Assembly (NCBI GenBank): GCA_017435025.1
Contig: JAFSFU010000006.1
Coordinates: 1 to 11,356 of the forward strand
Source of the DNA: Lachnospiraceae bacterium
Lineage (GTDB): Bacteria > Bacillota_A > Clostridia > Lachnospirales > Lachnospiraceae
DNA: 11,356 nucleotides
Direction of reading: 5' to 3'
Part shown: piece by piece, positions 723 to 11,356 of the stretch
How positions within the stretch are numbered: the first letter of the stretch is position 1
How the letters are laid out: each line of letters opens with the position of its first letter
Made by a program: the position numbers and the translations under genes
The notes under the pieces: model-generated
Databases searched by the model: none
Told to the model about the DNA's origin: nothing
The model's input: the letters and a program-made list of their open reading frames with translations, nothing else

Positions 723-2114
723 CTAATCTACCAGACGTTTGCTCTTCCATTTGCCGGATCTGAACCGCCAGTAACCGCCGATGCTGTTAAAGAGCCAGTG
801 CGGAGCCATCGCGATCCACATGCCGATGATGCCCCAGTCCAGCCATACCGCAAACACAAAGGAACCGGACAGACGGCCGATCAAAAGTCCCAGCACTGCA
901 ATACGCATGGTAAACTTTGCATCGCCGGCCGCACGGATCGCAGATACCAGCGGACCGGATGATGTTCCCAAAAGTACAGTCCACAAGGTATGGATCGCCA
1001 CCAGGACGCCGGCATACCATCTCGCCTCGTCCGACAGAGAATAGAGATTCAGCACGATCGGCAGTGAGAGCATCACACATGCGTTGACGATCATCGAACC
1101 AAACTGTGCGATCAAAAGCATCTTCTTCGTATAATAAGTTGCCTGTTCATAGTCACCGGCACCGACACATCGACCGATGACGGTCGGAATCGCCAGACTC
1201 ATGGCACCGTTGACGATGGTATTGATATTGTCAATCGAAACTGCAACGCCATTGGCCGCAATCTGTGCCGTACCAAAAGTGGCGATCACGCTTGTCAGCA
1301 CCACACGACAGATCTGGAACATGCCGCTCTCCACACCGCTCGGAATCGCGATGGAAAGAATCTTTCGGATCAGTTCTTTATTCCACGCAAAAATCTCTCG
1401 GATATGTACCGAAATCGGCCACTTGTCATCCCGCAGCAGCATGCACATCACAACCGCCGCCGTAATTCTGGAAACCAGGGACGGAACTGCAACACCTACG
1501 ACTCCGGCGCGGAATACGAATACACCGATCGCATTTCCGATCACATTCATCACGTTCATGCCAAGAGACACCTTCATCGTGATCTTAGAATTTCCCATGG
1601 CACGGAACAGCGCTGCAAACGCGCTGTATGCAGCCATGAATGGGTAAGAAAACGCCGTAATGATCAGATAAGTCAGTGCCGCATCCATAACATCTGGTTC
1701 AATCTGACCAAACAGCAGACCTAGCAGCGCCCGATTTCCCACCATCATAAAGCCAAGAAATCCAAGAGACAGCGCCACAGAGATCATAACCAGCTGACTG
1801 GCCGCTTTCTTTCCGGTCTTAATATCTCTATTTCCTATAAACTGTGATACCACGATCGTTCCACCGGTCGCCAGTGCATTGAATACATACAAAAAGACTC
1901 CGTTGATCATGTCCACCAGCGACACACCGGAAATGGCCGCCTCGCCTGCATGGGACACCATCATCGTGTCTGCCACTCCCACCAGCATCACAAGGATCTG
2001 TTCGATGATCAGCGGCACGATCAATGCCTTCAAGTCCATATTGGAAAACATCTGCCGCTCTGCCGGAATATGATCCCGCGGCGGCTCTATTAATTTTGCA
2101 AATAATCGCGACAT
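723..2114 (-). CDS. MATE-family multidrug/cation antiporter
   Basis: This is a polytopic membrane protein of 463 residues, the usual MATE length (12 membrane helices), exporting organic cations or other small molecules in exchange for Na+ or H+. Seen in the sequence are the N-terminal helix ending in VGVADTMMVSHAGEAAISGVS, a MATE signature (VDT-like plus the following small-residue helix), the segment NALATGGTIVVSQFIGNRD, and the repeated second-half equivalent GVESGMFQICRV followed by AANGVAVSIDNI. The start at 2114 (MSRLFAKLIE) is preferred over an upstream in-frame ATG at 2189. It has GAGGA at a normal distance, and the longer version would read through a hairpin and promoter and adds a Cys-rich non-membrane tail. 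A TATAAT promoter lies at 2149-2178. The ATL repair gene follows directly. The substrate cannot be told from sequence; DinF-like and NorM-like members both occur in this clade. Confidence 0.92.
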   Translation of the reverse strand: MSRLFAKLIEPPRDHIPAERQMFSNMDLKALIVPLIIEQILVMLVGVADTMMVSHAGEAAISGVSLVDMINGVFLYVFNALATGGTIVVSQFIGNRDIKTGKKAASQLVMISVALSLGFLGFMMVGNRALLGLLFGQIEPDVMDAALTYLIITAFSYPFMAAYSAFAALFRAMGNSKITMKVSLGMNVMNVIGNAIGVFVFRAGVVGVAVPSLVSRITAAVVMCMLLRDDKWPISVHIREIFAWNKELIRKILSIAIPSGVESGMFQICRVVLTSVIATFGTAQIAANGVAVSIDNINTIVNGAMSLAIPTVIGRCVGAGDYEQATYYTKKMLLIAQFGSMIVNACVMLSLPIVLNLYSLSDEARWYAGVLVAIHTLWTVLLGTSSGPLVSAIRAAGDAKFTMRIAVLGLLIGRLSGSFVFAVWLDWGIIGMWIAMAPHWLFNSIGGYWRFRSGKWKSKRLVD

Positions 2115-2148
2115 AACGTTTCTTCCTCTCATGTTGTCAATCTTGTTT

Positions 2149-2178
2149 ATTATACAACAAGAGCGCTGCATTTCGCAA
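2149..2178 (-). promoter_or_regulatory. Promoter for the MATE-ATL operon
   Basis: On the minus strand there is TTGCGA (positions 2178-2173), an 18-base spacer and a perfect TATAAT (2154-2149), about 35 bases upstream of the MATE ATG at 2114. The -35 lies inside the hairpin at 2161-2183, so the end of the upstream unit and the start of this one are interleaved. The -10 is strong; the -35 matches at four of six positions. Confidence 0.5.
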
Positions 2179-2183
2179 CGCTC
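2161..2183 (-). terminator. Hairpin after the ECF S-component gene (weak terminator or attenuator)
   Basis: The minus-strand RNA can form GAGCG-x-TGC paired with GCA-x-CGCTC (one A/C mismatch) around a five-base loop, followed by TTGTTGT. It begins 15 bases after the S-component stop codon. The T-run is short and interrupted, so termination may be partial, which would let riboswitch-controlled transcripts continue into the MATE gene. Confidence 0.4.
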
Positions 2184-2197
2184 CCGCAAAAATCATC

Positions 2198-2707
2198 TTA
2201 TCTCACATTCTCCGCCATTCGCAGCGTGGAAATGATCGGCATGATCAGCATGCCGCAAAAGAAATTGCTGACACCATGTATCATGTCGAAAGGCAATCCC
2301 GATACGATCCAGGATACCATTCCTTCAAAACTCAATCCGAACAGAATTGCCTGCGCCGGTGCATACAGCAGACCGTAACAAAATCCATGAATCGCACAAA
2401 CGATCATATATACGATCGGGCGAACTTTTGTCGGCATCCGCTTCGGCAAAAGCATCGTCACCGCCCATAGAACGGTCCAAATATAAGTATAGGGTACCCA
2501 CCAGGTTGAAAAACCATTGAGCAGACCGGTCAGCAGCACAAAAATGTAAATCGGATACAGCGCCTTTTTTCGATAAACAACGGTTGTCGCCATAACGAAC
2601 ACTCCGATCAGGTGGATGTTCGGTGCCAGATCCATAATGATCTTCGATGCATACATGACAGCACCCAACATGGCAAAGATGGCTGTTTCTCTCACTGTCA
2701 GCTTCAT
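2198..2707 (-). CDS. ECF-type transporter S component, probable corrinoid (vitamin B12) substrate-binding membrane protein
   Basis: S components are small membrane proteins that bind a vitamin and pair with a shared EcfA/A'/T energising module. This 169-residue protein has the typical S-component size and layout: the N-terminal segment KLTVRETAIFAMLGAVMYASK, a short loop, then about five more hydrophobic stretches (for example GVFVMATTVVY, YPIYIFVLLTGLLNGF, VYMIVCAIHGFCYGLLYA). The start at 2707 was chosen because its ATG follows the stop of the lipoprotein gene by one base (TAG-T-ATG), which implies translational coupling; an ATG at 2749 lies inside that gene. It sits in a transcript headed by a cobalamin riboswitch, next to a transcobalamin-like domain protein, so B12 or a corrinoid precursor is the likely ligand. 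It may correspond to the CbrT/CblT class, but I cannot confirm that subfamily. No EcfA/T genes are in the window; they are probably encoded elsewhere. Confidence 0.8.
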   Translation of the reverse strand: MKLTVRETAIFAMLGAVMYASKIIMDLAPNIHLIGVFVMATTVVYRKKALYPIYIFVLLTGLLNGFSTWWVPYTYIWTVLWAVTMLLPKRMPTKVRPIVYMIVCAIHGFCYGLLYAPAQAILFGLSFEGMVSWIVSGLPFDMIHGVSNFFCGMLIMPIISTLRMAENVR

Positions 2708-2708
2708 A

Positions 2709-3182
2709 CTACTTCGCCATACGGAAGGAATAAACATCTTCCTCCACAATTTCCGTCAATTCTACACCGGTCGTACCGTACTCGCCATTCACATAGAATG
2801 CCCAATAGACTTTGTCCTTGTCGTAATCGGCCTGGATTCCGTTGACACTCTTCACATACAGGCCATACGGTCCCTCATCGCCATCGATAAGCTCCAATGC
2901 GATCAAGGCTTCACCGACGGTCTCCGCGTCAGTGTGAATCTCGAACCATGTCTCAGCCCCATCCAGATCCACTACGGAAAAGTCAAACACCTTGCTTCCT
3001 TCACCGAGAACCGTGACCTCCGCATCTGCGCTTTGATCGGCAGCTGCCTCCTCCGTCTTCGATATCGGTGTCTCCTTTTTTTCTGCATTGCCACTGCAGC
3101 CAGTTGTAACCAGCGCCATAGCCACAATCAGCGCCATACAAAGGATCCATGACAACGCTTTTTTCAAACGTTCTTTCTGCAT
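2709..3182 (-). CDS. DUF4430 (transcobalamin C-terminal-like) lipoprotein
   Basis: This is a secreted, lipid-anchored protein of 157 residues. Residues 1-28 form a signal peptide (KERLKK basic start, hydrophobic core), ending in a VTTGC lipobox with Cys29 as the lipidation site. A low-complexity Glu/Ala/Asp linker spans about 31-54. Residues about 55-157 form a single DUF4430 domain: beta-strand FDFSVVDLDG, then ETWFEIHTDAETVGEAL, the YGLYVKSVNGIQADYD segment, and the diagnostic YWAFYVNGEYGTTGVEL. This domain is related to the C-terminal half of intrinsic factor and transcobalamin, which covers the upper face of B12. AAGGGG at 3193-3198 is the ribosome binding site. A cobalamin riboswitch lies upstream and an ECF S component directly downstream, so it probably captures corrinoids at the cell surface and hands them to the S component. 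Domain assignment is strong; the handover role is inference. Confidence 0.85.
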   Translation of the reverse strand: MQKERLKKALSWILCMALIVAMALVTTGCSGNAEKKETPISKTEEAAADQSADAEVTVLGEGSKVFDFSVVDLDGAETWFEIHTDAETVGEALIALELIDGDEGPYGLYVKSVNGIQADYDKDKVYWAFYVNGEYGTTGVELTEIVEEDVYSFRMAK

Positions 3183-3207
3183 CTTCTTTGTCCCCTTATG
3201 CTATTTT

Positions 3208-3239
3208 TGCAGGATATCCACCAAATGTGCTCTCCTGCA
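3208..3239 (-). other. Leader hairpin just upstream of the lipoprotein ribosome binding site
   Basis: A perfect 7-bp inverted repeat (TGCAGGA/TCCTGCA) encloses an 18-base loop, 10 bases before the AAGGGG ribosome binding site of the lipoprotein gene. On the minus strand no T-run follows, so it is not a terminator in that direction. It could be part of the riboswitch expression platform that controls translation. On the plus strand it is followed by TTTCTTTT but no gene precedes it. Confidence 0.35.
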
Positions 3240-3365
3240 TTTCTTTTATCCCCAGTAACCGGCACTCGCGGCATTTGCTTTGTGAACAACTACATTCACC
3301 CAATCAAACTATTGAGGATTCCTGTCCGGATATTCCGGCTCGGCACTTCTTGTTCCGCCTTCTCA

Positions 3366-3481
3366 GATTTCTCCAATGACATGTCCCCGGATGTGGCTCC
3401 GGGTCAGAACAAAACGTTTCATATGCCTCACGGCGACGGGCTCGCACAGGTCTTCCACCTGTTTCCCCAGACATTTGAAAT
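3366..3481 (-). ncRNA. Cobalamin riboswitch (aptamer)
   Basis: On the minus strand the aptamer core is read at 3467-3428: GGGGAA, then the stem ACAGGT/ACCTGT around GGAAG, then GCGAGCCCGTCGCCGTGA, matching the conserved cobalamin-element blocks (GGGAA, GGTG..A..CC, CCCGC, YGTGA). The second conserved block appears at 3392-3378 as TCCGGGGACATGTC, close to the usual TCCGGAGACCTGCC. The outer stem closes: ATTTC and AATG on the 5' side (3481-3473) pair with CATT and GAAAT on the 3' side (3378-3375 and 3371-3367), with a small internal bulge. An inner hairpin CCCGGA/TCCGGG is also present. The aptamer leads by about 180 bases into the transcobalamin-like lipoprotein and S-component genes. Cobalamin riboswitches normally shut expression off when B12 is plentiful. 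I see no T-run terminator between aptamer and gene, so translational control is more likely. A candidate -10 (TAAAAT, 3485-3480) would cut into the closing stem, so the true promoter is probably further upstream. Confidence 0.85.
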
Positions 3482-3500
3482 TTTATCACACTTCGACGAC

Positions 3501-3529
3501 TTGTACAACATAGCGTCATGTGTTAAACT
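3501..3529 (+). promoter_or_regulatory. Candidate promoter for plsC
   Basis: TTGTAC (3501-3506), a 17-base spacer and TAAACT (3524-3529) lie about 80 bases upstream of the plsC start. Both hexamers are imperfect. The -35 is part of the palindrome TTGTACAA, which could equally act as a -35 on the other strand. Tentative. Confidence 0.3.
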
Positions 3530-3608
3530 ATAGAAAAAATTTATGGTGCCGGATTCATTTTCCGTGTACTGATTAAAATTCATAACTGAAAGAAAAGGAA
3601 GTAACTAT

Positions 3609-4322
3609 ATGAATCGTATTGTATATATGTGTCTCAAGAGTTTCTGGAAAGTACCGCCGGCATGGTTCAAACTGTGCAAGTATGCGAAAAATCCGGAAAA
3701 ATACAGCAGAAAAGAAATGTATGATCACATCCGCTATATTATGCAGACGGCTGTCACCTCAGGCAATATCAATCTGAAAGTATCCGGAACCGAATTAATG
3801 CCTGCAGAAGACGGTTTCTTTATTTACGGAAACCACCAGGGCATGTTCGATGCAGTGGCAATCCTTGCTGCCTGCGAACGTCCGCTGTCCGCAGTTTTCA
3901 AAAAAGAACTGAGCGATATTCCTTTCTTAAAACAGGTTATCGCCTGCACGGACTCTTATGCCATGGACCGCGAAGATATCCGTCAATCGATGGAAGTCAT
4001 CATGAAAACCGCCAAAGATGTGGTTGAGAAAAAGAAAAATGTCCTGATCTTCCCAGAGGGAACCAGAAGTAAGAACGGCAACCGGATGGGCGAGTTCCAC
4101 GCCGGAAGTTTCAAGAGTGCCCAGAAGGCAAAATGCCCGATCGTTCCCCTCGTCTATATCGACAGTTACAATGTTCTCGACAAACCTGGCACCGATCCGA
4201 TGACTGTACAGCTTCATTTCCTGGAACCAATCCCATATGAAGAGTACAAATCTATGAAAACCCAGGAGATTGCGGCAATGGTGAAAGAACGGATTCAGGC
4301 TGTGATCGATGCGAATACGTAA
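3609..4322 (+). CDS. plsC: 1-acyl-sn-glycerol-3-phosphate acyltransferase (PlsC family)
   Basis: PlsC adds the second acyl chain to lysophosphatidic acid, giving phosphatidic acid for membrane phospholipid synthesis at the cytoplasmic face. The 237-residue protein carries the acyltransferase blocks in order: motif I NHQGMFD (His76 and Asp81, the catalytic HX4D), motif II around AMDRED (residues 118-123), motif III FPEGTRS (148-154, glycerophosphate binding), and motif IV PIVPLVYID (177-185). There is no strong N-terminal membrane helix, only an amphipathic stretch (FWKVPPAWFKLCKY), as in many short Firmicutes members. AAGGAAG eight bases upstream supports the ATG. It is the only plus-strand gene in the left half and stands alone, divergent from the riboswitch unit, with its own terminator. 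The exact acyl acceptor is not provable from sequence; other lysolipid acyltransferases share these motifs. Confidence 0.9.
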   Translation: MNRIVYMCLKSFWKVPPAWFKLCKYAKNPEKYSRKEMYDHIRYIMQTAVTSGNINLKVSGTELMPAEDGFFIYGNHQGMFDAVAILAACERPLSAVFKKELSDIPFLKQVIACTDSYAMDREDIRQSMEVIMKTAKDVVEKKKNVLIFPEGTRSKNGNRMGEFHAGSFKSAQKAKCPIVPLVYIDSYNVLDKPGTDPMTVQLHFLEPIPYEEYKSMKTQEIAAMVKERIQAVIDANT

Positions 4323-4494: not shown

Positions 4495-5730
4495 CTATGC
4501 CGATGTACCAATTCTTGCTGCGCGACGTTCTTCCATTTTGGCAACACAGATTGTACCAACCATATCTCCCATACAGTTACCTGTAGTAGTTGCCATATCA
4601 AAGATTCGATAGAAACCAGCCATGATACCAACAATTTCAACAGGAAGACCAAACGTAGCGACTACTGTAGCAATTTTAACAATGCCGCCGCCAGGAATAC
4701 CACTGCCAGCAGAAGAAAGTAATGTTGCCACAATAATGATTCGTAACATTGTGCCAAGGTCAAAAGAAACACCGTTCATCTGAGCAATGAACAGAAGAGT
4801 GGTGGTAAATCCGATTGCCATACCATCACTATTCATGCTGGCTCCCAACGGAATTGTAAATGCAGAAATACGATCCGGAATATGAAAAACTTCCTTAGCT
4901 GTACGAAGGCTGTTCGGGATATTGGCAGTGCTGGAACAGGTTGCCATAGTAAATGTCCATACAGGGGTTGCCTTTTTCAGGAATGTGAAAATGTTCATGC
5001 GAGCGAAAACCGCAAGGAATGTACCATAAACAAGAACAATCTGAAGAAGGATCGTTAACCAGTGAGTTGCTACAAGACCCGCCATGGAGGTGAATATTGC
5101 AAAACCATAAACACCAAAAGAATCTGCCATTAAGAATAAAACACCTACCGGGGACAGCTTAATGACAATGCGCAGATACTCCGTTACCAAAGAATTCATT
5201 GCAGAAAACCAGCTCAACACCGTTTTCTTGTGTTCTTCATTCTTCATTTTCAAAATCGCAATGCCCAACATAATTGAAATTGACATGGTCGGCAAAATAT
5301 CTGCGTTCGCAAACGTTTGGAACATATTGGATGAGAATAAACTTGTGAAGAAGGTTGGTATACTCATTGTCGTAGTGTCTACTTCGCTCATTTCCAATCC
5401 TTCTATAACAGCAAGTGTTCCGGGCTTAATAATGCTGGTTGTGATCAGGGCCAAAACAATAGCAAAAATCGTGGTCATCACATAGTATACCATAATGCGA
5501 ACAGCGACACGGCCAAACTCAGCCAAACTATCCTGACCGCCGATAGCAGTGACAAGAATGCATACGATCAATGGAATCTGAATCATTTTGATACAGTTAA
5601 GCCAAATCGTACCAATAAATTTGTAGGCGCTCATCTGCTCACCAAACACCAATCCCAAAACAGAACCCACGATCATTGCGATAAAAGTCAACATCGCTGT
5701 TGACGGCATTTTCATCTTTTTCATTTTCAT
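4495..5730 (-). CDS. DAACS-family (dicarboxylate/amino acid:cation) symporter, predicted neutral amino acid substrate
   Basis: This is a 411-residue membrane symporter of the glutamate transporter (GltPh/DctA/SstT) fold with both re-entrant hairpins. HP1 carries TCSSTANIP (264-272) where glutamate carriers have a serine-rich motif. TM7 reads NSDG (300-303) in place of NMDG, keeping the Na+-site Asn and Asp. HP2 is SSAGSGIPGGG (339-349). TM8 is DMATTTGN (378-385), keeping the substrate-amino Asp378, Thr382 and Asn385. The TM8 Arg that binds the substrate's acidic side chain (Arg397 in GltPh) is Thr381 here, and the partnering TM7 Thr (314 in GltPh) is Met304. Human ASCT1, a neutral amino acid carrier, has Thr and Ala at these places. 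A neutral substrate such as Thr or Ser is therefore inferred. The gene begins 17 bases after the threonine aldolase and shares its transcript. GGGAG sits very close to the ATG at 5730; an ATG at 5724 has better spacing and may be the real start. Confidence 0.9.
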   Translation of the reverse strand: MKMKKMKMPSTAMLTFIAMIVGSVLGLVFGEQMSAYKFIGTIWLNCIKMIQIPLIVCILVTAIGGQDSLAEFGRVAVRIMVYYVMTTIFAIVLALITTSIIKPGTLAVIEGLEMSEVDTTTMSIPTFFTSLFSSNMFQTFANADILPTMSISIMLGIAILKMKNEEHKKTVLSWFSAMNSLVTEYLRIVIKLSPVGVLFLMADSFGVYGFAIFTSMAGLVATHWLTILLQIVLVYGTFLAVFARMNIFTFLKKATPVWTFTMATCSSTANIPNSLRTAKEVFHIPDRISAFTIPLGASMNSDGMAIGFTTTLLFIAQMNGVSFDLGTMLRIIIVATLLSSAGSGIPGGGIVKIATVVATFGLPVEIVGIMAGFYRIFDMATTTGNCMGDMVGTICVAKMEERRAARIGTSA

Positions 5731-5747
5731 TTTCTCCCTTCTATCGC

Positions 5748-6785
5748 TTACAAACTCTTGTCAAGTTCTTTCACGATATTGATAGCCTGTATTGTCTGGT
5801 CTTCTGTTATTCCATGATAGAAAACCATACGAACACGCGTATCCGTGGAACGGCTAAGCCAAAGTCCTTTCTCCTTCGCTCGTACAATAACTTCATCTGC
5901 ATTCAATCCGGTATCTGTAACATCCAGGATCAAAATATTGCTTTGAATGTTTTTGAGTGTATGAATCTTTTTCAGATTTCCTAAAGCTTCCCAGGCCATC
6001 TTTGCCTTACGATGATCTTCTGCCAAATTAGAAATATTATGATTCAAAGCATACAAACCGCAAGCCGCAAACACACCGGCCTGACGCATTGCGCCACCCA
6101 AAAATTTTCTTGTTTTTGCCGCTTCAAGGATAAACTCTTTCTTTCCACAAAGCATAGATCCAACAGGGGCTCCCAATCCTTTAGAAATACAAAACATAAC
6201 AGAATCCACGTATTTACAGATTTCTTCTGCACTGTTCTGTGATGCAACAGCCGCATTAAATAATCTGGCTCCATCCATATGAATCGGAATACCTGCTCGA
6301 TCTGCCAAACGTCGAAGCTCTTTTAAAACATGGATTGGAATATAGGTTCCTCCGGCTGCATTATGGGTATTTTCAATACAAAGCAGTTTCGGTTTTGCAT
6401 TTTCTAATATATCTTCGATTTCTTTGGTATCAGGATAACCATCTTCCGTCAAATGATAAAAAATCGGATTCATTTGACCGCACCTCGGATCACAAACAGC
6501 TTTTTCTACATTGTAGATATGCTGATTCGCATCCATCAGCACAAGATCCCCCGGTTGACAATATGTCAAAACTGCTACATGGTTTCCCATCGTGCCAGAG
6601 GGCAGCAAAATGGAGCGTTCCATTCCGGTCAACTCGCATGCACGATCTTCAAGTGCAGAAACCGTCGGATCTCCACCGCGACCATCCCCATCCAGTCTTC
6701 CTGAATCACCTAAAGGTGCATCCAGAATACATTGAAGCATCTCCCTGCTGGGAAGGGTTACGGTATCACTTCGTAAATCAATCAT
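5748..6785 (-). CDS. ltaE: Low-specificity threonine aldolase family PLP enzyme
   Basis: Threonine aldolases cleave L-threonine or L-allo-threonine (and other beta-hydroxy amino acids) to glycine and an aldehyde. The 345-residue protein starts with the family signature MIDLRSDTVT, then SGTMGNHVAVL, the His of NQHIYNVEKA (His89, stacking on PLP), ENTHNAAGGTYIP, HMDGARLFN (Asp171, contacts the pyridine nitrogen) and the PLP-lysine segment SKGLGAPVGS (Lys202), followed by GGAMRQAGVFAA. The ATG at 6785 was chosen because it begins the signature and has GGGAGG upstream; a longer in-frame start at 6836 has no support. One region is unusual: where the E. coli enzyme has GDDVYGDDP, this one has a longer loop (residues 26-40, GDSGRLDGDGRGGDP) without the Tyr, which may alter substrate choice. 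It is the first gene of a two-gene operon with the symporter and is divergent from the LysR regulator. Family certain; exact substrate open. Confidence 0.92.
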   Translation of the reverse strand: MIDLRSDTVTLPSREMLQCILDAPLGDSGRLDGDGRGGDPTVSALEDRACELTGMERSILLPSGTMGNHVAVLTYCQPGDLVLMDANQHIYNVEKAVCDPRCGQMNPIFYHLTEDGYPDTKEIEDILENAKPKLLCIENTHNAAGGTYIPIHVLKELRRLADRAGIPIHMDGARLFNAAVASQNSAEEICKYVDSVMFCISKGLGAPVGSMLCGKKEFILEAAKTRKFLGGAMRQAGVFAACGLYALNHNISNLAEDHRKAKMAWEALGNLKKIHTLKNIQSNILILDVTDTGLNADEVIVRAKEKGLWLSRSTDTRVRMVFYHGITEDQTIQAINIVKELDKSL

Positions 6786-6857
6786 AGATAAACATCCTCC
6801 CTTTCTTTTCGTCAAATCGGTAAGTTTTCTATGCAATAAGGCGCCTTTTCAATTAAA

Positions 6858-6936: not shown

Positions 6937-7881
6937 ATGTTTTCAAATAAGGATTATGTTTATTGTATTTATAAAGAAAAAAGCTTTAGCAAAGCAGCAG
7001 ATAAATTGCATATCTCGCAGCCATCCTTATCTGCCACTATTGCCAAAGTAGAAAAACAACTTGGAATGAAAATTTTCGAACGAAAAACGAAACCAATTTC
7101 TCTGACACCATTCGGAGTGGAGTATATTCGCGGAATTGAACGGATCAACGAAGTGGAAAAATACCTGCAGGCACTGGCATATGATATTCATACCCTGCAA
7201 AGCGGAAGTCTGGCAGTAGGAGCCAGTAACTTGAGTGTATCTTCTTTTGTCCCTAAAACCATAGCGAAGTTCAAAGAGTTGTATCCCAACATACATGTCG
7301 ATCTGGTTGATACAAGCGCTGTAAAATCCAGCCATATGTTAGATACCGGTGACTTAGATATGGTAATTACCAATTGGCCATATGATCAAAACAAATACTT
7401 CCGTCAAAAATGCAGTAATGAGCATTTAGTATTGGCAGTTCCCAGCAAGTATTCCATCAATACAAAACTTCAATCGAAAATGTTAACCCTGGAAGAACTG
7501 ACAAGCGGAATTTCTGACGAATTGTCGGGAACCGAAGTTTCCCTCTCAGAATTAGAGGACATTCCATTTATTCTTCTCCGGCAAACCAGCGCTTTACGCA
7601 GATGTACAGATATGATGTTTAAAGAATGTCAAATGGAGCCCAGGATTGTATTGGAAACCGATTATTCTGCCATTGCCTATAATATGGCAAGTATTGGAAT
7701 GGGTGCAACGATTATCAGCAACCGCTTAGCCATTGATCATCCCGGAAATAGCTCTATCTGCCATTACAAGCTAAGCAGTCAATATAGTACGTTAAATACC
7801 TATATCTGCTACAGCAAAGGAAGATATTTAACTCCACCCATGAAGAAATTTATTGAAATGCTGCAAGAAGATTCTAAATAA
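6937..7881 (+). CDS. LysR-family transcriptional regulator
   Basis: This 314-residue LysR-type regulator has the standard layout. An N-terminal winged helix-turn-helix (residues 1-60) contains FSKAADKLHISQPSLSATIAK as the DNA-reading helix pair, ERKTKPISLTPFG is the wing, a linker helix covers about 61-88, and a periplasmic-binding-protein-like effector domain runs from about 91 (GSLAVGASNLSVSSFVP) to 310. The ATG at 6937 matches the family start (MFSNKDYVY); GGTGG lies only three bases before it, so translation may be modest. The gene is divergent from the threonine aldolase/symporter operon and their promoters share one inverted repeat. It is therefore most likely the local regulator of that operon and of itself, with the amino acid or a breakdown product as inducer. 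That role and ligand are inference from gene order. A strong terminator follows. Codon use is AT-rich compared with the release-factor genes to the right. Confidence 0.9.
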   Translation: MFSNKDYVYCIYKEKSFSKAADKLHISQPSLSATIAKVEKQLGMKIFERKTKPISLTPFGVEYIRGIERINEVEKYLQALAYDIHTLQSGSLAVGASNLSVSSFVPKTIAKFKELYPNIHVDLVDTSAVKSSHMLDTGDLDMVITNWPYDQNKYFRQKCSNEHLVLAVPSKYSINTKLQSKMLTLEELTSGISDELSGTEVSLSELEDIPFILLRQTSALRRCTDMMFKECQMEPRIVLETDYSAIAYNMASIGMGATIISNRLAIDHPGNSSICHYKLSSQYSTLNTYICYSKGRYLTPPMKKFIEMLQEDSK

Positions 7882-7904: not shown

Positions 7905-7966
7905 CGGCGTCCACAGACACTCACGAAACATTCGCAACATGTGTCCATAGACGCCGATTTTTATTA
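7905..7966. terminator. Bidirectional terminator between LysR and popT
   Basis: CGGCGTC (7905-7911) pairs with GACGCCG (7950-7956), and GACAC (7916-7920) with GTGTC (7941-7945), separated by a symmetric 4/4 internal loop. On the plus strand ATTTTTATT follows; on the minus strand the stem is followed by GGTTTTGTTTTG. It can end the LysR transcript and the convergent popT transcript, whose stop codon overlaps the plus-strand T-tract. Confidence 0.82.
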
Positions 7967-8806
7967 TTCTACCTCAAACTTCTGATTAAACGCATCCAGT
8001 GCCAGCGCTGCCGCAATACCGGCTGCGATGCAGATCACATTGACAATGGCCGCGCCAGCGGAAGCTGTAAAGCTGCCAAACGGAATGATCATAATGGTCG
8101 CTGCGATAACAACACCGATGATCGCATGGAATGCAACGGAATAATGATGATCAAACAGGGAATTTACTGCTTTCGCAAATAAAATTACTGTTGCCAGCGC
8201 ACCGATACCTCCCGGAATACAGACGGACATATCGAGATGACCAATGCCTGCCACAAACGGCTCGTACAAGCCTAACGGCATCAGCAGTGTGGAAAAACTC
8301 ATACCAGGCGCAATGATACTCAGCGCAAGGCAGAATCCGCAGAACACATACCAGATTACATTCGGCTCAATCTGCACAGACATCACGCGTAAGCTGATGA
8401 GCAGCGCAAAGATTGCGATCATGGCGATCACCATCGATACGAAGGATGCATTGTTTCGACCTTCTTTTCCGGCCTCGCGGAACAGGGACGGAAGCATACC
8501 GGTGATCAGACCGATGAAGACACACACGGACGGATCCGGATATTTATCCAGTAAAAAGGAAAGAAGATTTGCAACGCCCAAAAAACCGACGATCAAACCG
8601 ACACCATACGGGAACAACTTCGGAAAATGCGTTTTAAATTTACGGATCGGATCTGCCAGGAATTCCATAATGGTTTTATAAACACCAAACACAACCATCA
8701 GGACACCTCCGGAAATACCCGGAAGTACAGCTCCAAGTCCGATCAGCGCACCCTGAAACACATGAAATCCGATTTGAATCGGGGAAGATTTTTTTTCTTT
8801 ATTCAT
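7964..8806 (-). CDS. popT: DUF368 membrane protein, polyprenyl-phosphate transporter (PopT family)
   Basis: DUF368 proteins have been shown to return undecaprenyl phosphate, the lipid carrier for peptidoglycan and surface polymers, across the cytoplasmic membrane. The 280-residue protein has the family's internal repeat: GLGAVLPGISGG (residues 23-34) followed by GVYKTI in the first half, and SIIAPGMSFSTLL (163-175) followed by GLYEPFVAGI in the second. Each repeat has a re-entrant PG motif, within about eight hydrophobic segments. The start at 8806 has GAGGTG seven bases upstream. It has its own promoter (8868-8897) and a hairpin-containing leader, and ends at a bidirectional terminator, so it is a single-gene unit. 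The family is clear; assignment to the exact substrate rests on what is known of DUF368 homologues, not on this sequence. Confidence 0.88.
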   Translation of the reverse strand: MNKEKKSSPIQIGFHVFQGALIGLGAVLPGISGGVLMVVFGVYKTIMEFLADPIRKFKTHFPKLFPYGVGLIVGFLGVANLLSFLLDKYPDPSVCVFIGLITGMLPSLFREAGKEGRNNASFVSMVIAMIAIFALLISLRVMSVQIEPNVIWYVFCGFCLALSIIAPGMSFSTLLMPLGLYEPFVAGIGHLDMSVCIPGGIGALATVILFAKAVNSLFDHHYSVAFHAIIGVVIAATIMIIPFGSFTASAGAAIVNVICIAAGIAAALALDAFNQKFEVE

Positions 8807-8828
8807 AGTTTGACACCTCTTTTTGTTT

Positions 8829-8880
8829 ATGGATTCCTAAATCTGATATGTAGTCATATCTCTCTTAATTTTAAATCCAT
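8829..8880 (-). other. Nested hairpins in the popT leader
   Basis: In the 5' leader, the outer arms ATGGATT/AATCCAT (7 bp) enclose a perfect inner hairpin GATATG-ACTA-CATATC (8845-8860). The outer 3' arm lies about 20 bases from the popT start codon. It does not match a riboswitch class I recognise. The outer 5' arm overlaps the spacer just upstream of the proposed -10, so it may act as DNA (an operator) rather than RNA. Confidence 0.35.
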
Positions 8881-8897
8881 ATTGGTCTGGTTGGTAA
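8868..8897 (-). promoter_or_regulatory. Candidate promoter of popT
   Basis: On the minus strand TTACCA (8897-8892), an 18-base spacer and TAAAAT (8873-8868) match at four and five of six positions. The -35 begins six bases after the long hairpin that follows prfA. Confidence 0.45.
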
Positions 8898-8902
8898 CAT
8901 AA

Positions 8903-8940
8903 ATGCCCTATACCGACCGTACTCGATCAGTATAGGACAT
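8903..8940 (-). terminator. Long wobble-rich hairpin after prfA (probable terminator)
   Basis: The minus-strand RNA forms a 16-bp stem without mismatch around a six-base loop (GAGTAC). The arms are 8940-8925 and 8918-8903. Four of the pairs are G-U, which become A-C mismatches in the plus-strand RNA, so the structure belongs to the prfA-side transcript. The stem ends 25 bases after the prfA stop. The following tract (TTATGTT) is T-poor, so termination may be inefficient, or the hairpin may mainly protect the 3' end. Confidence 0.6.
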
Positions 8941-8965
8941 ATCATTTCTGTCTGTATTTCCTAAA

Positions 8966-10042
8966 TTACACTTCGTCGTTCATCTTAGCCAGCTTCGCTG
9001 CCTGGTCAGCGGCGATCAGACTGTCGATGATCTCCTGAATGTCACCGTTCATGATCGGCTCCAGTCTGTACAGAGTCAGTTTGATTCTGTGCTCTGTCAC
9101 ACGGCCCTGCGGGAAGTTGTAAGTACGGATCTTCTCGGAACGGTCGCCGGTACCGATCTGGCTGCGGCGCTCTGCCGCTTCCTCGTTCTGGCGACGCTCC
9201 AGCTCCAGATCATATAACTTGGAACGCAGTAAACGGAACGCTTTTTCCTTGTTCTGCAGCTGAGACTTCTCAGTCTGGCTGTAGATTACGATACCGGTCG
9301 GCATATGGGTCAAACGTACCGCGGAGTCAGTTGTGTTGACACACTGACCACCGTTACCGGACGCACGCATTACGTCGATACGGATATCTTTATCTTCGAT
9401 CACGATATCGAATTCCTCAGCCTCCGGCATAATTGCTACGGTTGCTGTGGATGTGTGGATACGACCGCCGGACTCTGTCTCCGGAACTCGCTGTACACGG
9501 TGAACGCCGGACTCATATTTTAATTTAGAATATGCGCCCTGACCGGTAATCATGAATTCAACTTCCTTCATACCGCCGATTCCACTCTCACTTACGTTGA
9601 TCAGCTCACATTTCCATCTCTGGCTCTCTGCATAATGCACGTACATACGGTATAACTCAGCTGCGAATAATGCTGCCTCATCACCGCCTGCACCGGCACG
9701 GATCTCAACGATAACGTTCTTATCATCATTCGGGTCCTTCGGAAGAAGCAAGATCTTGATCTTGTTCTCAAGCTCTTCGATTGCCTTCTTTGCATCAGCC
9801 AGCTCTTCTTTTGCCAGTTCTCTCATCTCTTCGTCAGTCTCCTCCTCAAGAAGAAGAAGGCTGTCTTCCACTGTCTGTTTTGCCTGAGTATACTCTTTGT
9901 ATGTCTCTACCAACGGAGCCAGATCTGCCTGCTCTTTCATCAGCGCGCGGAACTTTCTCTGATCGTCAGTAACAGACGGGTTGCTCAGTTCAAACATAAG
10001 CTCTTCATAATGTTTTACAATATCTTCTAAACGGTCAAACAT
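8966..10042 (-). CDS. prfA: Peptide chain release factor 1
   Basis: RF1 reads UAA and UAG stop codons in the ribosomal A site and triggers release of the finished protein. At 358 residues it has the normal length. An N-terminal helical domain (1-100) is followed by domain 2 with the stop-codon-reading PxT tripeptide, PET at residues 187-189 within [18 protein letters not shown]. Domain 3 has the catalytic GGQ at 231-233 in [16 protein letters not shown], and the C-terminal [20 protein letters not shown] is conserved in class-I factors. The PxT form separates it from RF2, which has SPF and needs a frameshift site; none is seen here. GGAGG six bases before the ATG is a strong ribosome binding site. 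Its modifier gene prmC lies 39 bases upstream on the same strand, so the two are co-transcribed. A long hairpin follows the stop. Confidence 0.97.
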
Positions 10043-10081
10043 GGGTAACCTCCTGTTACGCTTGGTTGCAGCTGTAAAATC

Positions 10082-10972
10082 TTATACAGTCTGCCATCTG
10101 CCGCAGACCACTCGGTCGTTGCCTGCCAGATCTTTGATTACTTTTGTATCTTTAAATCCATGGGCATCCAGCAGATTGACAACTGCTTTGCCCTGGTCAT
10201 GTCCTATCTCAAAATAGACTGCTCCATTCTTCTTCAGGAACCGTCCGCACTCTTCGGCCAGTTTCCGATAGAAAAACAGACCGTCCTCCGTACCGTCTAA
10301 CGCATTTCTCGGTTCAAAATCGCGAACTTCCGGCTCCAATCCCTCGATCACTTCACTTGGGATATAAGGTGGATTGGATACGATCAGATCAAATCGATCC
10401 CGCTCCGGGTCAAATGCCCCGAACAAGTCACTGTGACGAAAACGCACCGCACCTTCCCCAAGGATCGAATCCGCATTCTTCTCTGCCACTTTCAGTGCTT
10501 CCACGGAAATATCCGCCGCTTCCACATGCTGATATCCGCCAAGTTTCGCCAGACTGACGGCGATGCATCCGGATCCGGTACACATATCCAAAACTGATAA
10601 CTGCGTCTCCTTATGGGAATTCAGTACTGTCTCCACCAAGGTCTCTGTATCCTGTCTCGGAATCAGAACATGGCGGTTCACAAAAAACTCCAGACCCATA
10701 AATTCCTGGTTTCCCAGAATATGCTGCAGCGGTTCTCTCTTGGCACGTCGCTCGATATCCTCCGCATACGCGTTAAGCGCCTCCGGGGATGTCTCCGCCT
10801 TTTCCACCGAACACATCAGATACCGCATTCGGCTGATGCCAAAAGCACGCTCAAACAGATACCACGCATCCAGGCTGTACTCTTCGATGCCGGCTTCTTT
10901 CAGCCGGTTCTGACCTGCCGCCAAAAGTGCTCCCCAGGTCTTGCCTGCTGCCTCTGCGATCTCCGGCTTCAT
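10082..10972 (-). CDS. prmC: Release factor glutamine N5-methyltransferase
   Basis: PrmC transfers a methyl group from S-adenosylmethionine to the GGQ glutamine of RF1 and RF2, which speeds peptide release. The 296-residue protein has the N-terminal helical substrate-recognition domain (about 1-90, including RREPLQHILG-like RAKREPLQHILG), the link FFVNRHVLIPRQDTE (97-110), the SAM-binding motif I LDMCTGSGCIAVSLA (128-142), and the catalytic SNPPYIPS with the NPPY tetrad at 200-203. The C-terminal part includes ALDGTEDGLFFYR and VYFEIGHDQG, both typical of PrmC. The ATG at 10972 overlaps the stop of the DUF1385 gene by one base (TAATG), with GGAG upstream inside that gene, so translation is probably coupled. 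The substrate, RF1, is encoded next in the same operon. Confidence 0.96.
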   Translation of the reverse strand: MKPEIAEAAGKTWGALLAAGQNRLKEAGIEEYSLDAWYLFERAFGISRMRYLMCSVEKAETSPEALNAYAEDIERRAKREPLQHILGNQEFMGLEFFVNRHVLIPRQDTETLVETVLNSHKETQLSVLDMCTGSGCIAVSLAKLGGYQHVEAADISVEALKVAEKNADSILGEGAVRFRHSDLFGAFDPERDRFDLIVSNPPYIPSEVIEGLEPEVRDFEPRNALDGTEDGLFFYRKLAEECGRFLKKNGAVYFEIGHDQGKAVVNLLDAHGFKDTKVIKDLAGNDRVVCGRWQTV

Positions 10973-11356
10973 TACACCGTCTCCTCTTTCTTTGCGAAAT
11001 ATCCCTTCGGATACTTCTCCGGGAAGTTCTCCTCCAGATATTCCTGCCAGTCAAACACCTGCTCCACAGCTGCGATCGCAACCTCGATCATCGGCTCCTC
11101 CGGCTCGAACGTAGTGAGCCCCTGCATCCAGAGTCCCGGCATGCTGACAATATCCATAAACTTGGAATTGCTGCGTCCTGCCAGGCGAAGCACCTCATAG
11201 GAGACACCCGCAATGATCGGGATCAGAATGATTCGGCTGAGCATTCTGAGCCATACAGTCTCCACACGGATCACCATAAAGAACAGAATACTGATCACCA
11301 TAACGATCAAAAGGAAGCTGGTTCCGCAGCGCTTGTGCTCTTTGGAACTCTTCATA
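10972..11356 (-). CDS. DUF1385 (YqhQ-like) membrane protein, C-terminal part (5' end outside window)
   Basis: The last 128 or so codons of a DUF1385 protein are present. The visible sequence opens in the middle of the conserved HKRCGTSFLL block, which lies well inside full-length family members (about 300 residues). The Met at 11355 is therefore internal, not a start. Two hydrophobic segments follow, FLLIVMVISILFFMVI and IILIPIIAGVSYEVL. Then come the conserved WMQGLTTFEPEEPMIEVAIAA and a cytosolic acidic tail ending KYPKGYFAKKEETV. The function of the family is not established. It is often found directly before prmC and prfA in Clostridia, and here its stop codon overlaps the prmC start, so it is part of the same operon. 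Confidence 0.9.
   Translation of the reverse strand, partial: MKSSKEHKRCGTSFLLIVMVISILFFMVIRVETVWLRMLSRIILIPIIAGVSYEVLRLAGRSNSKFMDIVSMPGLWMQGLTTFEPEEPMIEVAIAAVEQVFDWQEYLEENFPEKYPKGYFAKKEETV

Follow-up and report, generated by a model that had tools for sequence, protein, structure and literature searches.

In energy-coupling factor (ECF) importers, the S component is described as the protein that binds the substrate (PMC5997447), and the locus studied here raises the question of what a surface lipoprotein encoded directly ahead of an S component contributes to such an importer. The two genes lie on the minus strand of an 11,356-nucleotide stretch of DNA from a Lachnospiraceae bacterium (positions 1 to 11,356 of contig JAFSFU010000006.1, assembly GCA_017435025.1; hereafter the window), behind a leader that matches the cobalamin riboswitch. 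A first-pass annotation had proposed a B12 uptake route made of this riboswitch-led lipoprotein and S component. The proposal is supported by the match of the leader to the Rfam model RF00174, by the carrier-like fold of the lipoprotein and by the match of the S component to CbrT, and we think the unit is likely to be a group II ECF importer for corrinoids (the vitamin B12 family) that includes one additional extracellular subunit.

The leader matches RF00174 at positions 3468-3328 of the minus strand with 39.1 bits, against a gathering threshold of 31.5 (E = 3.8e-07), and the match covers model positions 45-169 only. Outside it lies a seven-pair closing stem, with its 5' arm at 3473-3467 and its 3' arm at 3329-3323, and the aptamer with its stem occupies 3323..3473 (minus strand). 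To this locus we aligned 29 related leaders chosen by hand, and in the resulting set of 30 the closing helix and the aptamer core are retained with paired changes: both sides have changed at 23 of the 35 predicted pairs, and column pair 58/213 of the closing helix is G-C in 21 leaders, A-U in eight and a gap in one. The cobalamin aptamer and closing stem claimed by the first-pass annotation are thus upheld by the Rfam score, the stem itself and the paired changes. Folded by itself, the window leader has unremarkable stability (z = -1.49). Directly 5' of the aptamer, at 3480..3507 (minus strand), is a promoter-like site (TGTACA, a spacer of 16 nt and a TG before TAAAAT; 9/12 matches), weak when taken alone, as the scanned stretch holds two such sites against a chance expectation of 2.5. 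Of the 30 aligned leaders, 13 have by eye a TGNTATAAT element at the equivalent position; three leaders of the set, the window included, are too short to show it. The leader between the aptamer and the lipoprotein gene (3183..3322, minus strand; minimum free energy -37.9, z = -1.51) carries a Shine-Dalgarno-like AAGGGG at 3197-3192 and is probably the expression platform; a scan of 2000-3700 gave no terminator-like site.

The first gene of the pair (2709..3182, minus strand) encodes a lipoprotein of 157 residues, in which DUF4430 (PF14478) is the sole Pfam domain (E = 4.3e-09; 37.1 bits, cut-off 23.8), and the protein is indeed as small and single-domained as had been claimed. Its signal peptide ends in TTGC with the lipobox Cys29, which is invariant across 23 aligned sequences, and is followed by a linker of about 30 residues and one transcobalamin-type SLBB domain at about residues 60-157. 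An AlphaFold2 (AF2) model of residues 55-157, with a predicted local distance difference test score (pLDDT) of 96.4 and a predicted template modelling score (pTM) of 0.88, shows a beta-grasp fold with a beta-hairpin insert after the helix, as in the beta domain of transcobalamin (TC) and intrinsic factor (IF), and the structure of the domain matches haptocorrin, IF and TC far better than unrelated folds. The claimed kinship of DUF4430 with transcobalamin is supported by this structural match. Sequence searches with the whole lipoprotein reached the PDB entry 3u7z and not the animal carriers, and a profile of the DUF4430 domain reached Transcobalamin-1 at E = 0.0022 and intrinsic factor at E = 0.37 and 0.38, so the link to the animal carriers rests mainly on structure. 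Human intrinsic factor, transcobalamin and haptocorrin consist of a toroid and a beta domain, whereas the window protein has one domain behind its lipobox, and no alpha toroid was found among the window proteins scanned with Pfam. The BtuF-type domain Peripla_BP_2 is likewise absent from the lipoprotein in the Pfam scan. A 183-residue open reading frame (ORF) that begins at a TTG inside the lipoprotein gene is unlikely to have a true start. The entry 3u7z is RUMGNA_00854 of Ruminococcus gnavus, whose PDB title, in contrast to the role proposed here, is 'putative metal binding protein'; nothing in our analysis supports a metal-binding role. A separate observation concerns lipoproteins of about 248-269 residues (P0126, P0128, P0132 and similar ones), which by eye contain two tandem DUF4430-like repeats and are close in sequence to the single-domain protein of the window.

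The second gene (2198..2707, minus strand) encodes an ECF S component of 169 residues and of the CbrT type. Its ATG (2707-2705) is separated from the lipoprotein stop (2711-2709) by exactly one base, in agreement with the one-base spacing reported earlier, and we assume from topology that the C-terminus of the lipoprotein is outside and the N-terminus of the S component most likely inside. Compared with all PDB sequences, the S component found 6fnp_A (ECF-CbrT) at E = 9.5e-05 as a single sequence, at 2.2e-05 with 25 rows of close relatives and at 1.8e-20 with a diverse 33-row profile, with which 6fnp_A was the only chain at E <= 1; the two S components are homologous over nearly their whole length. 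The identification as an ECF S component is thereby supported, the sole match being to a cobalamin and cobinamide importer and none to a protein with another substrate. The matched structure, 6FNP, is ECF-CbrT of Lactobacillus delbrueckii, which is reported to import both compounds (PMC5997447). No ECF module gene was seen beside the pair in the window, so a shared module is expected, and an EcfT/CbiQ gene is present in all 12 of the related host genomes described below.

To assess the linkage of the two genes, we searched with the lipoprotein alignment one genome per species, in 84,980 species, and kept the best 80 of 164 relatives. An S gene lies 0-45 bp downstream of the lipoprotein gene in 74 of the 80 loci, and 61 have an above-cut-off cobalamin riboswitch within 800 nt upstream, at a median distance of 67 nt. 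When neighbouring ORFs were clustered, the lipoprotein and the S gene were the only common families, with 71 loci each, the next family having 11. The gene order thus recurs beyond chance, and the survey of DUF4430 neighbourhoods bears out the unit as first described. The nearest loci come from Lachnospiraceae metagenome genomes (the L001 lipoprotein at 72%), and in L001 and L002 the acyltransferase gene of the window is also near the pair. An adjacent S gene is missing in six of the 80 (L046, L067, L070, L073, L074 and L076); the L073 locus stops at a contig edge, and in L070 the S gene follows 2.5 kb on, after an insertion. As an observation in its own right, the DUF4430 lipoprotein of L074 (3301-4444) directly follows an S component of another kind (PF12822, with a weak Thia_YuaJ match); the locus has no CbrT-type S component and possibly represents a second S family with the same kind of lipoprotein.

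The reverse search, which started from the S component, gave 38 matches in 37 of the 120 genomes of the family of G001. We examined the neighbours at 30 of these 38 loci, with G001 and G008 already known from the forward search, and in 30/30 a DUF4430 gene lies on the same strand, no more than about 225 bp upstream (by our own profile; six were confirmed with Pfam). The 17 more distant of these S components are only 26-35% identical to that of the window. In the 34 family genomes with S matches at E < 1e-16, a tally made by hand from the tables finds a same-strand riboswitch above cut-off no more than about 1.1 kb upstream in 19, with scores of 34 to 121 bits, against a rough chance estimate far below one; among the other 15, G102 has a sub-threshold match (29.3 bits), G124 has one 4.2 kb upstream and 13 have none near. 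In a sample of the phylum, 74 of 299 genomes have an S component match, and among 30 loci examined, all 11 compact S components (one of them that of G001 again) adjoin a DUF4430 gene; the boundary between compact S components (no more than 203 residues) and longer ones (at least 216) was drawn after the table had been seen.

The longer S components (216-292 residues) were followed in ten larger regions, which were picked after the riboswitch table and hence illustrate an expanded operon rather than its frequency; G302 and G183, which have no riboswitch match, and G337, whose matches are on other contigs, were left out. A B12 riboswitch of 56-140 bits lies upstream on the same strand in all ten. 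DUF4430 proteins are encoded in each of the eight regions scanned with Pfam, against two of ten (L159 and L160) by our own profile, which therefore under-detects the domain. These proteins precede EcfT-like and EcfAA'-like genes and the S gene, with CbiQ confirmed by Pfam in L157 only and the remaining module genes judged by eye. Among the Pfam-scanned regions, six (L157, L159, L162, L164, L165 and L166) contain S-layer domains and several have toroid matches, and five scanned proteins are fusions in which two ABC ATPase domains precede the S component. Related expansions occur near the minimal pair itself. A further canonical B12 riboswitch is found in L070 (119.3 bits) and in L068 (115.8 bits), in each case ahead of the genes for a secreted protein and a second lipoprotein; the secreted protein of L070 belongs to the squalene-cyclase/prenyltransferase toroid type (Pfam E = 7e-05, below cut-off) and its second lipoprotein contains DUF4430, and the two L068 proteins resemble them by eye. 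In L061, a B12 riboswitch of 64.7 bits is followed by a protein of 1697 residues with DUF4430 and S-layer domains and then by the pair. Finally, in a single case, on a 3.7-Mb contig of G246, one frame of 737 residues joins an S component, a hydrophobic segment, an alpha toroid and S-layer domains (L153:1116-3326; L157:2616-4826; minus strand); its product may be cleaved, as the hydrophobic segment resembles a signal peptide. In intrinsic factor and transcobalamin, an alpha toroid forms the half that accompanies the beta domain.

We propose that, when corrinoid is scarce, the riboswitch would permit production of the lipoprotein and the S component. The lipoprotein, anchored at the outer face of the membrane, would bind corrinoid through its beta-hairpin face, like the isolated human beta domain (TC-beta), and would present it to the cavity with which the S component faces outward, or close it over that cavity; a shared EcfAA'T module would then topple the S component and release the corrinoid inside. 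Thus we infer that the lipoprotein binds corrinoid, touches the S component and is needed for transport. That a lone beta domain should bind corrinoid and then close onto a partner has precedent, because isolated TC-beta does so, and given this precedent the S component is the obvious partner here, where it would most likely take the place of the alpha toroid. It is quite possible, instead, that the lipoprotein is a free-standing binder of the BtuF kind, which passes corrinoid on but does not close with the S component into a clamp: isolated TC-beta does bind corrinoid (PMC5599065), and the linker of about 30 residues sets the domain apart from the lipobox. Against such a free binder, the transcobalamin beta domain is one half of a sandwich (PMC1796856), the assembly of TC-alpha and TC-beta is described as cobalamin-dependent (PMC5599065), and the fusion of the toroid half to an S component in one relative suggests close contact. 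The closed clamp of lipoprotein and S component, as opposed to a simple hand-over, seems to us somewhat doubtful. A broader proposal, which we hold tentatively, is that the bacterial beta domain is the lid of an ECF S component and clamps one corrinoid, and that the animal carriers derive from this bacterial ECF accessory; the minimal lid with S component, the lid with toroid and S component, and the toroid fused to S component would then be intermediate states.

The need for such a route was assessed in relatives, from 12 genomes chosen from the 80-locus set. Each whole genome has one or two cobalamin riboswitch matches, the single one of G003, before its pair, being below cut-off (29.7 bits). 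B12-binding domains (PF02310) occur in all 12, the best of each in an ORF of 789-843 residues, which we take to be about the size of methionine synthase; PF02965 proved a poor marker of the B12-dependent enzyme (two of 12 genomes) and was replaced by PF02310. CbiD was found in four hosts, and the same four have CobS and also a protein homologous to the BtuF-like one of G001, itself a Peripla_BP_2 match. None of these three was found in the other eight, among them G002, a strain-named record without a metagenome-assembled genome label, and in these eight the riboswitch matches found sit at the lipoprotein/S locus (in its extended form in G010 and G011). The second riboswitch of G001 and the only one of G008 precede a CbiK-type gene and a gene whose product matches NEAT below threshold, and in G001 this region is followed by a Peripla_BP_2 protein, an FecCD permease and an ABC ATPase. 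This BtuFCD system resembles the pair as a cobalamin-type ABC importer behind a B12 riboswitch, but uses other families of binding protein (Peripla_BP_2) and permease (FecCD). The protein with the sub-threshold NEAT match is secreted and is encoded beside the CbiK-type chelatase gene, downstream of a canonical B12 riboswitch (L111:1951-2889; L114:3237-4121); NEAT domains are known for haem, and this protein may have a corrinoid or a haem role.

These host data also bear on the substrate. The pair might import another compound related to B12, namely cobinamide only, a lower-ligand base such as dimethylbenzimidazole, or cobalt, since B12 riboswitches are reported also to precede cobalt transport genes (PMC2667541) and CbrT takes cobinamide as well as cobalamin (PMC5997447). 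We regard this as improbable: the eight hosts with neither CbiD nor CobS would gain little from cobalt, cobinamide or a free base, the sole PDB match of the S component is CbrT, and the fold of the lipoprotein is that of corrinoid carriers.

Several observations weigh against a corrinoid importer with a dedicated outer subunit. As for the riboswitch, 19 of the 80 loci have none above cut-off within 800 nt; among them, L022, L027 and L028 have little upstream sequence, and in L061 and L068 a canonical riboswitch lies farther upstream. The L003 pair, in genome G008, has no riboswitch match, the single one of that genome standing before the BtuFCD/cbi region. The S component matches no Pfam or NCBIfam model, so that its identity rests on the CbrT match, and its AF2 model, built with 25 close relatives, is too poor for use (pLDDT 54.3). 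Of the 30 phylum loci examined, 19 encode a longer S component for which our own profile detects no DUF4430 gene within 1.5 kb. Since the four CbiD hosts also have a BtuF-like protein, they do not rely on the pair alone; the host genomes are mostly metagenome assemblies that may be incomplete, and the use of one BtuF query leaves room for divergent BtuFCD systems in the others. Lastly, the lipoprotein may be dispensable, because purified ECF-CbrT of L. delbrueckii transports as four subunits, CbrT, EcfT, EcfA and EcfA' (PMC5997447), and in the loci L046, L067 and L076 the lipoprotein is present without a CbrT-type S gene. The lipoprotein would then be an accessory, a surface store, concentrator or sensor of corrinoid, while the S component and the ECF module suffice for transport. 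We consider such an accessory role unlikely in view of the pairing of the S loci with DUF4430 (30/30 and 11/11, down to 26% S identity to the window's), which argues for a joint function, and we retain the importer with its extra subunit as the preferred reading.

The general idea is not new. Burroughs and colleagues defined the transcobalamin-like clade in 2007 and noted its signal peptides, toroid fusions and operons with CbiO and CbiQ; they described the hosts as usually without key enzymes of B12 synthesis, predicted scavenging of B12 or its precursors, and proposed that animals acquired transcobalamin-like proteins from low-GC Gram-positives (PMC1796856). Their proteins belong to the same DUF4430 clade, are secreted or surface-anchored and share ECF-type operon genes (CbiO/CbiQ) with the systems described here. 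The words 'riboswitch', 'ECF', 'lipoprotein' and 'S-component' are absent from that text (PMC1796856), and the window differs in that its lipoprotein has one domain and is paired with nothing but an S component, and in that a B12 riboswitch leads the pair. A proteomics table lists the DUF4430 protein LGG_02295 / LRHMDP2_2713 of Lactobacillus rhamnosus as 'Additional lipoprotein component of putative cobalamin ECF transporter'; its gene adjoins rtpR, which encodes an adenosylcobalamin-dependent reductase, and aeration lowers both proteins (log2 -1.8 and -2.0; PMC9963975). Compared by description only, it is a DUF4430 protein with the same predicted role as the window lipoprotein; the available part of that source gives the name only and mentions neither a riboswitch nor an S component (PMC9963975). 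The homologous ECF-CbrT differs in that it was studied and crystallised as CbrT with EcfT, EcfA and EcfA' only; its gene sits in the cluster nrdJ-cbrS-cbrT-pduO, and the text mentions cbrS once, as part of that cluster name (PMC5997447). Among the papers listed by searches of full-text literature, whose coverage leaves out most subscription journals, none could be recognised as describing or testing the riboswitch-lipoprotein-S unit. The fresh evidence is the near-obligate pairing with the S component, its riboswitch, and the link between S component and toroid.

The rest of the window contains genes of other kinds. Downstream of the pair, the stretch 2149..2193 (minus strand) holds an inverted repeat, seen by eye, and a promoter-like site (TTGCGA, 18 nt, TATAAT) no commoner than chance expects, and is probably the end of the two-gene unit. 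Beyond this repeat, and with this site as its own, follows a MATE-family transporter gene (723-2189, minus strand), which was dropped as a member of the unit as it is not conserved beside the pair in related loci. At 4495-6836 (minus strand), a sodium:dicarboxylate symporter gene (PF00375) lies beside a beta-eliminating lyase gene (PF01212), whose product we take to be threonine-aldolase-like, and a LysR-type regulator gene is divergent from both (6937-7881, plus strand); the three look like a regulated module of amino-acid uptake and cleavage. An undecaprenyl-phosphate translocase-like gene (PF04018; NCBIfam PopT below cut-off) stands beside release-factor, PrmC and DUF1385 genes at 7964-11355 (minus strand).

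If the proposed importer is real, the presence of a near-obligate external partner in one family of S components would alter the picture of ECF transport for B12, and gut Firmicutes such as the eight of 12 hosts with neither CbiD nor CobS would have a defined route for the vitamin. It would also suggest a role for 3u7z, a structure that is solved but unassigned, and would link the way in which bacteria take up B12 to how intrinsic factor and transcobalamin arose. Bacteria and animals may thus grip B12 with the same kind of domain.
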